Origin: Deltaproteobacteria bacterium
Lineage (GTDB): Bacteria > SAR324 > XYD2-FULL-50-16
Direction of reading: 5' to 3'
Assembly: GCA_018657625.1 (NCBI GenBank)
Contig: JABHWU010000044.1
Span: forward strand, 1-64,000
DNA length: 64,000 nt
Shown: piece after piece, positions 9,025 to 61,574 of the stretch
Numbering within the stretch: position 1 is the first letter of the stretch
How the letters are laid out: each line of letters opens with the position of its first letter
Translations under genes and position numbers: made by a program
Notes under the pieces: generated by a model
What the model was told of the DNA's origin: nothing
Databases searched by the model: none
What the model saw: the letters and a program-made list of their open reading frames with translations, nothing else

Positions 9025-10116
9025 CTATCTTTTAAAATAGGACAATAATAAATTATGAATTTGAGGCCTGAAAAGACGCATTTGTTGAATATTTGTATCC
9101 CTGTCAATGTTTATCCGATTAGATAACAATATGATAGCTAGTTTTTCAGGTAGATATAACCAGGATGAGGTTCCGGTAAAACCCAAATGTCCAATCGCAC
9201 CATCTGGCATAAAATCTCCACAGCTTTTATAGGTGGCATTTGAATTATTTATATCCCAACCGACGGTTCTGGGGTCTATTGTTGAGGCATTTTGATTTGA
9301 GGTCCATATCTTGAAATAGGGTTCAGATATTATTTGATGTCCATTGTGATATCCTTTATTGAAAATCATTTCATTTAAGGCAGTTAATCCGTCAATATTG
9401 GCAAAGACACCGGCATTTCCACCTTCTTCTTGAAATAGATACGCATTTTCGTCATGCACAACTCCTTTCAATTGCATTTTACGAAAATTGCAATAAGCGG
9501 TTGCAATTAATGAATGATTTGGTGATTTGGTGTGGGGTTTAAAGGATACAAAGCCCTGCTTAAGTTTGCTGAAAATCTGCTCTTGACAGTATTGAGAAAG
9601 AGATAATGACGATACCTTTCTGACAAGTTCCCCTAATATAAGGTATCCTAGGCAACTATACACCATTTTACTTCCAGGTGTATTTTCAATATCCATGGAC
9701 AGGAGTTTATCCTGGGCAATCTTTAAATCGAAACCATCCTCAAAAAGTGGATACCAGGCCGGTAGTCCTGATGTGTGTGTCAATAGTTCTAATATGGTTA
9801 TGGTACTTTTATCAGAGTGTTTGAAGTGATTCAAGTATTTAGAAAATGGAAGCTTAAGATCTATCAATTTTTGTTCGGCCAGCTGTAACACTGCCAGAGA
9901 AGTCACATAAGGTTTAGTTAGTGAAGCAATGTCAAAAATACTATTTCTTTTCAAAACAGAAGCATTTTTTTCCTTTGATTCTAAACCAAAGGTTTGGTGT
10001 ATAATGACTCTATTTTGATAACTAAAATAAACCTCTAAGCCAGGAAATGTTTTCCTTAAGATATTTTCTTCGATGATTTTTTTGATGTTTAAATAGTATT
10101 CCTGATCCATCTTCAT
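9025..10116 (-). CDS. Beta-lactamase-family serine hydrolase with altered YxN motif
   Basis: This 363-residue protein has the class C beta-lactamase/penicillin-binding-protein fold. S65-L-T-K68 (DIASLTKPY) supplies the nucleophile and general base, and H310-L-G-F-T-G matches the third motif. The segment VVHDENAYLFQEEGGNAG is typical of the esterase/amidase-like branch. The second motif, usually YxN or YSD, reads Y153-S-C155 here, so a catalytic helper residue is replaced. There is no clear signal peptide (MKMDQEYYLN), so it is probably cytoplasmic. The substrate is unknown. It lies 115 bases upstream of mazG on the same strand, perhaps separately expressed. Confidence 0.85.
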   Translation of the reverse strand: MKMDQEYYLNIKKIIEENILRKTFPGLEVYFSYQNRVIIHQTFGLESKEKNASVLKRNSIFDIASLTKPYVTSLAVLQLAEQKLIDLKLPFSKYLNHFKHSDKSTITILELLTHTSGLPAWYPLFEDGFDLKIAQDKLLSMDIENTPGSKMVYSCLGYLILGELVRKVSSLSLSQYCQEQIFSKLKQGFVSFKPHTKSPNHSLIATAYCNFRKMQLKGVVHDENAYLFQEEGGNAGVFANIDGLTALNEMIFNKGYHNGHQIISEPYFKIWTSNQNASTIDPRTVGWDINNSNATYKSCGDFMPDGAIGHLGFTGTSSWLYLPEKLAIILLSNRINIDRDTNIQQMRLFRPQIHNLLLSYFKR

Positions 10117-37522: not shown

Positions 37523-37601
37523 TAAAAAAATTAATTATAAAACGGTGCAAGATTTGCTTTTCCTGCAATCGTGCAAATTCTGACTAATTTAATGATTGGT
37601 A

Positions 37602-39389
37602 ATGGCTGAAAAAATTGGATATGTTTCAAAAGAACAAATTGAGCAGATCATTCAATCTGTCGATATTGTTCAATTGATCAGTGGATATGTTCAAATTAAG
37701 TCTTCAGGCAAGAATTTTATAGGGTTATGCCCGTTTCATAATGAAAAAACGCCGTCATTTATTGTTTCACCATCTAAACAGAATTATCATTGCTATGGGT
37801 GTGGTGAATTTGGGAATGCCATTCGATTTATTATGGAGGTTGAAAATTTCAAATTCCCCGAAGCAGTTAAATACCTGGCAGATAGGCATGGCATTTTATT
37901 GTCTACCACTAGTTCTGGTAAAAAAGAGAACAGGTTTCAAAATCATGCTTATCAATGTATTGAAGCAGCTTTTAAGTTTTATCGTAATAATCTGAAACGA
38001 TCTGATGAATCCAGTAAAATTCAACAGTATTTAAAACAAAGAAGTATTTCCCGGGATTTAGTTGAAAAATTCCAGTTAGCCTACGCGCCTTCTGGCTGGA
38101 ACAACCTAAGTCAATATTTGAATAAAAATGGTTTTAGCGAATCACTACAAAACAAAGTAGGGCTTATCAAGCAGGGTGAAAAGGGTAACTTCTATGATCG
38201 AATGCGTAATCGGCTGATCTTCCCGATACAGGACACGCAAAGCCGATTTTTAGGTTTTGCCGGCCGTGTGATTGGTGATGATTTACCTAAATACTTAAAT
38301 CCACCGGAAACGCAATTATATAAGAAAAGTAACTATTTATATGGGCTCAAAGAAGCCCAAAATAATATTCGAAAAAAAAACAGAATAATCATTGTTGAAG
38401 GTTACTTGGATGTTATCCGTTTACATGAACATTCGTGGGATGAAAGTGTTGCTACATGCGGAACGGCACTTCATGATAACCATATTAAACTGATAAAGCG
38501 ATTAAATGTTAATCAGGTCTACTTACTTTTTGACGGTGATTCAGCTGGTATTAAAGCAGCTGAAAAAGCAGCACAACTTTTTATTAAAAGTGAAGTAGAT
38601 AGTAAAGTTATTATATTACCGGAGGGTCTTGATCCGGATGATTATTTCAAGGCACATAATAATACGGAATTTCAGATTTTAATTGATCAATCGTCAAAGG
38701 ATTTTGAATTCATCATTCAACAATCCCAAAAAAGAGCTCAAGAAGGAGGAATTGAACATCAGAAAACGACAGTTGAAAATATGGTTGAACTTTCTAAAGA
38801 GATTCGAAGTCCAATAAAAAGAGATTTATTTCAGCTAGCAATTGCAAAGGCTTTTTCAATTGATCCAAAGAGTGTCTATCATTCTGTCAGATCGACGAAT
38901 CATGAAAAAAAACATAAAAATATTAGCTATTTAAATCAAAATAGACAATTCTCTTATCAAAAATCTGAAGAGCATGAAGTTGAATTAATTCAATATCTTA
39001 TTAAACAAGTACAAGCTATTACCAAAATTAAAGAGTATGTAACACCCGTTCAGTTTTCAAATCCTTTGTTAGCCACCTTATTTTCAAGGCTGATAAAATT
39101 GACAGATGAGGAATATACTTCATTAAAACCACAGGAGTTTCCTGAAATTTTTGTCGAATACAGTTCTCTGATCATGCATTTATTGCAGACGGGAAAAAAC
39201 TATACAACAGACATATTTTCAGAAACTAGATTGGATGAAGTCATTTACAGATTTAAAGAACAACAAATGTTTCAATTGCAAGCCAAAATTGATTCAGCAG
39301 AAACTGAAGCTGAAACGAAAAAATGGTTAAGTAAAAAAAACGAACTACGTAAAGAAATTAGTCACTTGCATCATAGAAAAAAGAAGTAA
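37602..39389 (+). CDS. dnaG: DNA primase
   Basis: DnaG makes RNA primers at the replication fork. I use ATG 37602 ([15 protein letters not shown]); an in-frame TTG six bases earlier is less likely. The 595-residue protein has a CHC2 zinc finger ([11 protein letters not shown]...HCYGCG, residues about 40-65). The TOPRIM core has [25 protein letters not shown] and [16 protein letters not shown], and a helical C-terminal DnaB-binding region follows. It is followed 25 bases later by rpoD, the classic macromolecular-synthesis order with rpsU missing here. Confidence 0.97.
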
Positions 39390-39414
39390 TTTAGCCAACC
39401 CAGTTGGAGATAAT

Positions 39415-41262
39415 ATGAAAAAAAAGCTCGCAGAAAAAACAAAACAGAAAAAAGATATCAAATTGACTCCTAAAATCATGGAAAAGATCATTAAACAATT
39501 GATATCAAAAGGCAAAACAAAAGGATTTGTCACGGAAGCTGAAATTGTTGATAGTTTTCCAACCAAACCTATTAAAAAAGAGTTAAATGCGGTATATGAT
39601 TTTCTCGCCGATAAAAATATTGAAATCGTTGATTCCACCAAAAAAGTTGACTTGAAAGATCTTGACAACGACATTCGCAGTCAAAATCTTGATTTTGAAA
39701 ATAGCAATGATTTTAGTGGTGGAGAGGCAGCAAATACAGCAGATAGCCAGACGACTATAGATCAGAGTTCTGACGACCCTGTCCGAATGTATCTTCGGGA
39801 AATGGGTTCTATCAAGCTACTTACCAGAGATGGTGAAGTTGATATCGCTAAGAAAATTGAGAAAGGTCAACATGAAATGCTTGATATTTTGCTAAGATCA
39901 GAATTGATTGTTAACTATTTATTCGATTTAGGTAAAAAACTTAAAAATGGAAAAGCCCGGGCCCGTGATATTGTCTCTGGTATCGACGAAGATGATCAGG
40001 TAATTGAAGAGGAATCACAGGCAGCTGATCAGGTGATTCAAAAGTTAAAAATAGCCAAGAAACATTTTGATGAAAGAAACAAGTTCTTCAAAAAACTACA
40101 AAGTATTAAGGATCTAAAGAAGAAAATAGAGATCGAAAAAGATCTGGAAGAAGCAAAATATTTATTATTAAATATTTTACGCTCTGTTAATTTTAATACC
40201 AAACAAATTGATACTATGTTTGCTGTGATGTTACATCATAATGATAAAATTGACTTAACATTCACACAACTTTCCAGATATCAAAGAGATTTACATGCAC
40301 CAGTGGCTAAAGTAGAAAAAATAATTATTCAGTGGAATGAGGAAAACCCCGAAAAATTTGATGAATTAGAACAACAAATTAAGGATCTGACCAGACATAG
40401 TTTCAGGGTGGCTCGGCGGATTTATGAAAAAGTTGAGGCCGGTGGACGCCGAATTGACAAAATGATTTCACAAACAGATGTACCACTGGATAAATTCAGA
40501 AGTGAAATTAAAAGACTTAAAATCGCGGAAGGTAAAGTAAGTCGAGCGAAAAGTCTACTGGTTGAAGCAAACTTAAGGCTCGTTATCAGTATCGCAAAAA
40601 AATATACAAACAGAGGACTTCAATTCCTGGACTTAATTCAGGAAGGAAATATCGGTCTAATGAAAGCTGTTGATAAATTTGAATATCGAAGAGGTTATAA
40701 ATTTTCGACTTATGCCACCTGGTGGATTCGACAAGCAATTACGCGCGCTATTGCAGATCAGGCACGTACCATTCGTATTCCGGTACATATGATTGAAACC
40801 ATTAATAAGCTAATTCGTACCTCGCGTCATCTGGTCCAGGAATTTGGCCGGGAACCGTCACCGGAAGAAATTAGTGAAAAAATGGATTTACCAGTTGAAA
40901 AAGTTAGGAAAGTACTTAAAATCGCCAAGGAACCAATATCCCTCGAAACACCTATTGGTGACGAGGATGACTCTCATCTGGGTGATTTTATCCCTGATGC
41001 AACGGCTGTACTACCCAGTGATTCTGTTGTAAATACCTACTTAGCTGATGTCACTAGAAAAGTATTGGGCACTTTAACACCAAGAGAAGAAAAAGTTCTG
41101 AAAATGCGTTTTGGAATTGATGAGAAAAAAGATCACACATTAGAAGAAGTTGGACAAGATTTCGATGTTACCCGTGAAAGGATTCGGCAAATAGAAGCCA
41201 AAGCTCTTCGAAAATTACGACATCCAACTCGAAGTCGACAATTAAAAAGTTTTTATGAATAA
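39415..41262 (+). CDS. rpoD: RNA polymerase primary sigma factor, sigma-70
   Basis: The 615-residue protein has region 1.1 (about 1-80), region 1.2 ([18 protein letters not shown]) and a charged non-conserved region. Region 2 ([35 protein letters not shown]) recognises the -10 element. Region 3 and region 4 follow ([18 protein letters not shown]), the latter recognising the -35 element. This is the housekeeping sigma, co-oriented with dnaG. Confidence 0.98.
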
Positions 41263-58708: not shown

Positions 58709-59734
58709 CTAATTAAGGTTTCCAGGATTAACCCATAACCAATGTTTACTTAAGCGACGAAAAACATCTGTAAAAACGATAATAACTTTAACGGTCCAAT
58801 AACAGGAGAAGGCGATCATCAGGTAATTCAGAATACCTGATGACAGTAATTCCAACATCGAAACAAGTAGTAAAATTAACGGTATAACAATACTATCTAT
58901 TTTTATAACCCAGATATCCAACCTGACCAGATAATTCCGCATTACTTTTCCAATGTATTCACCACTATAAACAGTTAATATTAACCACCCCAATGTTTGA
59001 TCAATTTTAGAATAAAACAGTGCGGCTGATAAAACTCCGCTACCCAAGGCAAATATAATAAAATGACTCGGTAGTTTCCCCACACGATTCCAAATATCAA
59101 CCATTGTCAATATATAACCGATCGTCATGGCAATAATTACTATCCAGTATGCCTGAATACCGTATAAAGAATATTGTGACCAAAGTGTTTTAAATACTGG
59201 AATACACCAGCTAATTAAAAAAACGATCAGCAAAATAAGGCCTTCCAGGGTACCTATTTTACTAAACACCAGTTGACCTGTTTCAAGTTCTTCTACCATC
59301 GTTAAAGCAAAAGCCTGAAAATTAAACCATACAACAAGGTAGAACCAAACATTGTCGATACTTCCAAATAGGCGTATGATTACCAGTAAGATGACGGCTC
59401 CATTGTAGACATCGAAATAGTGATCTAAAAATTCTCCAAGGGGCGAACCGGTTTTAGTCTCTTTCGCCTGCATTCCATCCAAATGATCTCCAACAACATA
59501 GCCATGGATGCAAATTGCAAAAAACAGGGGCAGCCAAACTGAACCAGAATAGAAGAAACTACCGATCAGCATTGATAAAACCAGTAGTGTGGATAAAATT
59601 GTGATTATATTAGCAGTCAACAGATGAGGTATCAGTTTAAAATACAATGTCACATAGTACTGTTTAAAGTACGGTAGAATTATTGATTTATCACTACAAT
59701 TATATTGATATTTGTCGTTGAAATTCGTTGACAT
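58709..59734 (-). CDS. CDP-alcohol phosphotransferase, eukaryotic CEPT-like
   Basis: The 341-residue polytopic protein has the CDP-alcohol signature: D83-x-x-D86-G87-x-x-A90-K91, then eight residues, G100-x3-D104-x3-D108. The usual Arg after Ala is Lys91. The segment HLDGMQAKETKTGSPLGEF and the size (about ten hydrophobic segments) look more like eukaryotic choline/ethanolamine phosphotransferases (DGKQARRT...SPLGELFDHG) than bacterial PgsA or PssA. The product would be a phospholipid, but the head group is unknown. Confidence 0.8.
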   Translation of the reverse strand: MSTNFNDKYQYNCSDKSIILPYFKQYYVTLYFKLIPHLLTANIITILSTLLVLSMLIGSFFYSGSVWLPLFFAICIHGYVVGDHLDGMQAKETKTGSPLGEFLDHYFDVYNGAVILLVIIRLFGSIDNVWFYLVVWFNFQAFALTMVEELETGQLVFSKIGTLEGLILLIVFLISWCIPVFKTLWSQYSLYGIQAYWIVIIAMTIGYILTMVDIWNRVGKLPSHFIIFALGSGVLSAALFYSKIDQTLGWLILTVYSGEYIGKVMRNYLVRLDIWVIKIDSIVIPLILLLVSMLELLSSGILNYLMIAFSCYWTVKVIIVFTDVFRRLSKHWLWVNPGNLN

Positions 59735-59931: not shown

Positions 59932-60327
59932 CTATACGGTATAACCCATTTTTTCTATTAATTCGAGGATTTTAAGTTTATTATAAGGTTTCATAATATA
60001 GTACTCGCAACCTTCCCGAAAAGAAGACAAAATGTTTTCTTTGTCATCTAAGCAGGTCTGCATAACCACTTTAGAGCCATTTCCGATATGAATATTGTTA
60101 CTATCCTCTAGTTTTCTGATTTCTAATAGCGCCTCATGACCGTTTAATTCTGGCATCATGATATCTAGAAAAATAATATCGTATATCTCTTTTTTTTCAA
60201 TAGCTTGAGCCACTAGCTCAACGGCTTTTTGGCCGTCAACTGCCATATCGCAGGTAGCAAAATTCATCAAAATTGCGTGAAGCAGTTGCCTGGTACTGAT
60301 ATCATCATCAACGATGAGTATTTTCAT
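59932..60327 (-). CDS. CheY-like single-domain response regulator
   Basis: The 131-residue receiver-only protein has DDD at residues 7-9 (MKILIVDDDIST). The phospho-acceptor Asp is in DIIFLDIMMPELNG, the Thr/Ser position is in VVMQTCLDD and the conserved Lys is in YYIMKPYN, so all active residues are in place. Output is by protein interaction, as in CheY. No kinase is adjacent. The neighbouring gene upstream is the pseudo-ABC-like protein. Confidence 0.92.
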   Translation of the reverse strand: MKILIVDDDISTRQLLHAILMNFATCDMAVDGQKAVELVAQAIEKKEIYDIIFLDIMMPELNGHEALLEIRKLEDSNNIHIGNGSKVVMQTCLDDKENILSSFREGCEYYIMKPYNKLKILELIEKMGYTV

Positions 60328-60440: not shown

Positions 60441-61073
60441 TTATTTAGAAGACTTTGAATTTTCTGGAATCGAAATTTTTTTATAGTCACTGTACTGATC
60501 TAAATCAAGACAATCTTTACTAGCATCATGTAAAATACAAATTAAATTATGTGAATCAATTAGAATTTTATTCAATACACGCTTCATATTATTGTCTAAT
60601 TCAATATTCAATAATTTGTTGATCAAAATCAGACCACTTTTTTGAAATAACAACGATAGCAGCACAAATTTGACTTTATCATCCTTTTTCAATTTATAAA
60701 CAGGATAGTGTAAAATATTTTTTGCTTTTAATAGGTCAACATAAAAACGTTTACTTTTCCTCACTCCAGCTAAATAGAAAAAATCACTATTAATTCCTAA
60801 CCAGCTATCGGTCATTTTTGAGATGACCCGATCTTCCAACAACAATCGATCACTCTGTATAAAAAGATTGTCTTCTCTTTTAATAATTCCCCTGTCAGCT
60901 TGATATCTTTTTTCCATCAAACCCATAACACATTGAAGAGTATCTTCACTTTTATTACTAAGTATATACTTTTTTTGGTTATACAATTTAAATGAAATAT
61001 CAGAAACTCCAAAATCATCATTCTCCATAAAACATACCCGATGAAAAGCTACAAGTGGAATTTGAGAAGACAT
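60441..61073 (-). CDS. Degenerate ABC-ATPase-like protein
   Basis: The 210-residue protein has the order and spacing of an ABC ATPase, but key residues are lost. The leading pattern VSDISFKLYNQKKYIL matches the start of the fold. The Walker A position reads S39-N-K-S-E-D-T-L (normally GxxGxGKST). The signature position reads LKKDDKVKFVL instead of LSGGQ. Walker B reads GLILINKL with N152 and K153 where Asp and catalytic Glu belong. The H-loop H182 (ICILHDA) is kept. ATP hydrolysis is therefore unlikely, and a structural or regulatory role is possible. Similarity is by pattern only. Confidence 0.55.
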   Translation of the reverse strand: MSSQIPLVAFHRVCFMENDDFGVSDISFKLYNQKKYILSNKSEDTLQCVMGLMEKRYQADRGIIKREDNLFIQSDRLLLEDRVISKMTDSWLGINSDFFYLAGVRKSKRFYVDLLKAKNILHYPVYKLKKDDKVKFVLLSLLFQKSGLILINKLLNIELDNNMKRVLNKILIDSHNLICILHDASKDCLDLDQYSDYKKISIPENSKSSK

Positions 61074-61250: not shown

Positions 61251-61454
61251 TCAGTTATCTTCGTTTTCATATACATTAATGATTTTTTGTAATAATCGTT
61301 TTTTTAGATGAATTGTGATTAATAGCAAATAAAATTTTCTGATAATTATCCCAATCATTAAAATACACAAACAAATAAGCAGTAAGATAATCCAATTTGC
61401 ATTCGTTTCAAAAAAAGAAAATAAAAGTGTTTTTGTTTCAGTCATACTTGCCAT
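61251..61454 (-). CDS. Small single-pass membrane protein, unknown
   Basis: The 67-residue product (ATG 61454; the next ATG is 61445) begins MASMTETKTL. It contains one strong transmembrane helix (WIILLLICLCILMIGIII) followed by a basic stretch and an acidic C-terminus. No ribosome-binding site is clear and no family is recognised. Composition and helix support a real gene, with moderate doubt. Confidence 0.45.
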   Translation of the reverse strand: MASMTETKTLLFSFFETNANWIILLLICLCILMIGIIIRKFYLLLITIHLKKRLLQKIINVYENEDN

Positions 61455-61574
61455 AACCAAAAATGAAGGTTATCGATTATAAATTACTTGTTAATTGTAT
61501 TTAACATTCAGGGATAAAAGGTTATTCAAATCTTGAACCTATTTACTGGCTAAGCTATCCATTTTATTAATAAA

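Follow-up and report, generated by a model that had tools for sequence, protein, structure and literature searches.

The window (i.e., the whole 64,000-nucleotide stretch of SAR324 DNA that was analyzed) carries an ATG-initiated open reading frame (ORF) of 210 amino acids at positions 60441 to 61073 of the minus strand. On the basis of its homologs, its AF2 fold, and its dN/dS values, we annotate this ORF as encoding a putative ATPase-dead single-domain ABC protein (pseudo-ABC gene), probably derived from domain 2 of the ribosome-associated ABC-F ATPase Uup. The gene of a CheY-like response regulator (59932 to 60327, minus strand; PF00072) follows in the same orientation after 113 bases, a linkage that is not conserved, and a CDP-alcohol phosphotransferase gene (58709 to 59734) and lpxD lie further downstream, in this order. 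Upstream, a pabA-like gene occupies the opposite strand. No permease gene adjoins the pseudo-ABC gene in the window, and none was seen in the other loci examined. An earlier reading of the DNA, made from the letters alone (the sequence-only reading), had likewise placed the ORF beside a CheY protein and a CDP-alcohol phosphotransferase with no permease adjacent. An additional ORF of 69 amino acids containing a hydrophobic stretch (61251 to 61460, minus strand) is located upstream on the same strand as the pseudo-ABC gene; it has a weak match in one relative (G001, locus L054; 33% over 48 amino acids; E = 0.003), where the matching sequence stands ahead of a cupin gene.

We predicted structures with AF2 (window protein plus seven relatives) and searched them against the PDB with Foldseek. 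The best of five models of the window protein reached a pLDDT of 88.2 and a pTM of 0.86, with two models near a pLDDT of 88 and three at 52 to 69. This best model had 1,017 matches at an E value of ≤0.001, led by EttA (2.2e-10); all of the 50 matches listed were ABC proteins, and Uup had the best query TM score among them (0.67). The model of a second family member (pLDDT, 77.9) also matched EttA first, and the EttA structure 4fin was the top fold match of both models. A profile-profile comparison with 16 genuine ABC ATPases of the window's own genome gave a probability of 97.6 (E = 2.7e-12). The models predict an ABC nucleotide-binding fold (i.e., a RecA-like core with ABC beta and helical subdomains) for the window protein, which bears out the ABC ATPase architecture that the sequence-only reading had recognized in this ORF and had proposed to check by structure prediction and fold search. 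The profile search that it had also proposed gave a divided result: no Pfam or NCBIfam model matched the window protein alone, while profiles of its family matched ABC-F proteins strongly.

A profile of 20 family members recruited Uup (9nlj) as its best match in the PDB (7.5e-26), whose second ABC domain scored 72.7 bits by itself. The next-ranked matches were all ABC-F proteins, and the transporter ATPase CcmA appeared at 6.6e-7. An earlier, narrower profile had been too weak against the PDB until members from genome families f3 and f4 were included; profiles built from f3 only and from f4 only each returned Uup first. Domains were also scored singly, which removes the double counting of two-domain ABC-F proteins. 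The median score was 68.7 bits for Uup-type second domains and 46.1 bits for other ABC-F second domains, while first domains (17.6 and 25.3 bits) and transporter ATPases (9.3 bits, the lowest) scored below them. Uup domain 2 had the highest median with every subprofile, weakly so for f1/f2 (median, 8.8 bits). Seven members additionally matched the NCBIfam Uup model (NF050005; best E value, 6.4e-10). In the phylogenetic tree, the family was monophyletic (UFBoot, 100) and sister to ten Uup-type second domains of the SAR324 class (UFBoot, 88) within a wider domain 2 clade (UFBoot, 97). Because its stem branch is long (approximately 1.0 substitutions per site), the domain 2 origin is more secure than the identity of the sister group, and long-branch attraction could have affected the exact position of the family. 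The window's own genome still encodes intact full-length Uup-like and EttA (L142) proteins, each of which retains its two Walker A motifs; this Uup-like protein falls below the NCBIfam Uup cutoff, and "Uup-type" is used here in that sense. Taken at the level of sequence, these data support an ABC-F ancestor, specifically Uup domain 2, rather than a transporter ATPase.

Our alignment combined 40 family members, 36 ABC-F domains, and 20 transporter ATPases, and an intact Uup domain 2 served as the reference for the catalytic motifs. At the former Walker A motif (residues 40 to 48; 60930 to 60956, minus strand), the window protein has NKSEDTLQC in place of GKNGSGKSS, and the P-loop Lys position is occupied by Leu46. 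The Walker A pattern GxxxxGK[ST] was found in none of the 40 members; a single Gly at one of the three Walker A columns occurs in two members only, and 14 members have Lys at the position of the Walker A Lys. Positions 44 and 45 of the old P-loop instead carry Glu/Asp-Gln in about three quarters of the family. The former signature LSGGE (residues 128 to 132; 60678 to 60692, minus strand) reads LKKDD in the window protein, and LSGG is absent from all 40 members; the signature helix carries a basic residue in 39 of them. In the former Walker B strand (residues 148 to 153, LILINK; 60615 to 60632, minus strand), the hydrophobic character is retained, but the Asp/Glu pair is replaced by N152-K153; no member has both acids, and the 12 members with an Asp at this column (12/40) never combine it with Glu. 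The sequence-only reading was thus right that Walker A, the signature, and the Walker B Asp/Glu were all replaced. It had also listed the H-loop among the recognizable elements, a point that the alignment does not support, since a His is present at that column in only 2 of 40 members and H182 of the window protein is not a family feature.

Other positions of the former nucleotide site are conserved. The former Q-loop (residues 74 to 76, SDR; 60846 to 60854, minus strand) carries an invariant [ST][DN] pair (40/40 members), in which the Ser/Thr is new and the Asp is common to Uup domain 2. The D-loop Asp (D160; 60594 to 60596, minus strand) is retained in 31 of the 40 members. The disappearance of the catalytic motifs, together with the new or continued fixation of other columns, looks like replacement under constraint rather than simple decay. 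Because of the Lys found in 14 and the Asp found in 12 of the 40 members, residual nucleotide binding in some of them is conceivable.

Among 52 genomes sampled from the class to which the window belongs (i.e., SAR324/Ca. Lambdaproteobacteria), a class-wide profile detected homologs in 42, while the family was absent from all 331 sampled genomes outside the class, where the sole match was a 659-amino-acid frame of the size of a full-length ABC-F protein. A protein search among the relatives recovered a single copy from almost all genomes of the window's family and one from another family of the same order. The copies of f1 (with f2), f3, and f4 are homologous to one another, with profile-profile E values of 1.1e-15 and 5.9e-13. 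In related pairs, dN/dS ranged from 0.14 to 0.42 (i.e., well below 1); purifying selection evidently acts on the family. Given these values and the 40 aligned homologs, the window ORF is a real gene. Some fairly complete genomes of the class are missing the gene. In the near-complete f4 genome G028 (L199), the gene is missing between a divergent spermidine-synthase-like gene and lolD and thus seems to be dispensable there. One homolog (L049; G005:C47, near position 10088) contains an in-frame TAA close to the old P-loop and may be a decayed copy or reflect a sequencing error. The gene, which is unnamed in Pfam and NCBIfam, is a candidate marker of the SAR324 lineage. The putative Uup domain 2 ancestry and the class-wide family, both supported by sequence comparison, go beyond the earlier reading.

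Gene context differs among the genome families, and no neighbor common to all of them was found (genes at the relatives' loci were named partly by eye from their sequences). In f1, six loci have a cupin gene ahead of the pseudo-ABC gene. An EpmA-like gene is convergent with the pseudo-ABC gene in seven f1 loci, six of which also carry the EF-P gene; EF-P and EpmA-like genes thus adjoin it in most f1 genomes (L050 to L057) but not in the window. In f3, the gene is mostly divergent from tsaE-tsaB and lies ahead of dnaG-rpoD. The window also contains dnaG and rpoD, at 37596 to 41262 (approximately 20 kb from the pseudo-ABC gene). An EnvC-like gene (named by eye) is near the gene in five f3 loci but is convergent with it, so an operon link was rejected; a replacement of FtsE was ruled out as well, an intact ABC ATPase gene being located directly before FtsX in the window's own genome. 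In f4, 7 of 8 loci (L065, L123, L124, L126, L128, L129, and L130) have the gene immediately ahead of lolD-bamA in the same orientation, with skp and fabZ next where the contig reaches; lolD is downstream there, but no permease gene adjoins the pseudo-ABC gene. In G010, the gene stands just before lpxD. Translation-related and envelope-related neighbors thus both occur, and neither proves a partner.

Our preferred interpretation combines descent from a Uup-type domain 2 with a non-hydrolyzing binding role, a joint claim to which we assign a probability of roughly three in four. According to this interpretation, an ancestral member of the SAR324 class would have acquired, in a single event, a free-standing pseudo-ATPase derived from domain 2 of a Uup-type ABC-F protein. 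Domain 1, the linker, and the arm would either have been lost or not have been copied at all, and Walker A, the signature, and Walker B would have eroded afterwards. The fold, the descent, the motif loss, the class-wide retention, and the purifying selection have computational support, which for the descent and the motif loss comes from independent analyses, and we infer beyond them that the protein probably neither binds ATP canonically nor hydrolyzes it. It would work by binding, with the old ABC surface and a remodeled nucleotide pocket docking a protein or ribonucleoprotein partner. This pocket would comprise the Glu/Asp-Gln of the P-loop, the fixed [ST][DN] of the Q-loop, the basic residue of the signature helix, and the D-loop Asp. 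Because of the ABC-F ancestry, our first guess, a tentative one, is a translation-related partner (e.g., the ribosome or a full ABC-F protein); a partner in envelope assembly is a second and unlikely guess. In a bolder version, which we consider doubtful, the protein would be a lineage-defining single-domain pseudo-ABC-F whose ATP pocket was rebuilt as a conserved non-nucleotide site ([ST][DN] plus Glu/Asp-Gln) and which would act ATP-free on the ribosome or another complex.

The f4 gene order and the position before lpxD in G010 would also fit a degenerate ABC subunit working alongside a transporter (e.g., a dead LolD partner in lipoprotein release) or another envelope system. However, the sequence comparisons rank Uup domain 2 first and transporter ATPases last; the best LolD match in the window's own genome lies on another contig and is accompanied by a permease of its own; the f1 and f3 members do not adjoin lolD; and G028 keeps lolD-bamA without the pseudo-ABC gene. 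We therefore regard a transporter subunit as quite unlikely. A nucleotide sensor with an unusual pocket, rather than a plain scaffold, would account for the conservation, instead of drift, of the old P-loop and Q-loop positions (Glu/Asp-Gln and [ST][DN]), although the absence of Walker A and LSGG from every member makes such a sensor improbable.

The sequence-only reading had suggested that the protein became a non-hydrolyzing structural or signaling partner. Its non-hydrolyzing part agrees with the role that we infer from the fold and the motif loss. Signaling with the neighboring CheY protein, which the 113-base distance and the shared strand might suggest, is highly improbable: a response regulator lies within two genes of the pseudo-ABC gene in 4 of 37 loci, about as often as expected by chance from the abundance of these proteins (109 domain matches in the window's own genome). 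A decaying gene without function could explain the in-frame TAA of the G005 copy and the genomes that are missing the gene, and yet the retention of the gene by 42 of the 52 SAR324 genomes, the dN/dS range, and the fixed family-specific residues leave this explanation hardly credible. The reading that we continue to favor is a binding protein that descended from Uup domain 2.

The closest known relative of the family is Uup (NF050005; PDB 9nlj), whose second ABC domain is the best match of the whole-family, f3, and f4 profiles and the sister in the tree, and whose Asp before the Q-loop Gln is shared with the SAR324 family. ABC-F proteins usually are ATPases with two ABC domains joined by a linker (PMC6723617). 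Uup has two ATP-competent domains and a linker in one chain, whereas the SAR324 proteins consist of a single domain and lack both the linker and the catalytic motifs; two ABC domains with a linker (PtIM) in one chain were not found in the family, and one domain was present in all members seen. The ABC-F linker that reaches the P-site tRNA is absent from the family. EttA and other ABC-F proteins (i.e., YheS, YbiT, VmlR, and PoxtA) form the second-best sequence group and differ from the family in the same respects as Uup. LolD is also an ABC ATPase and is encoded directly beside the gene in f4; however, it is intact, and the profile of the SAR324 family scores it far lower than Uup domain 2. In the open literature searched, we found no description of a single-domain ATPase-dead ABC-F offshoot, which is not proof that none has been published. 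Catalytic residues have likewise been lost from an ABC domain in exporters with one degenerate nucleotide site (ABCB11 type; PMC7544095). In those exporters, the degenerate domain still works within a transporter that has one active site, whereas the SAR324 domain stands alone and its Walker A motif is wholly lost. If confirmed, the family would represent a pseudo-ABC-F protein that an entire bacterial class has retained, and it would be well suited to studying what an ABC domain can do without ATP.
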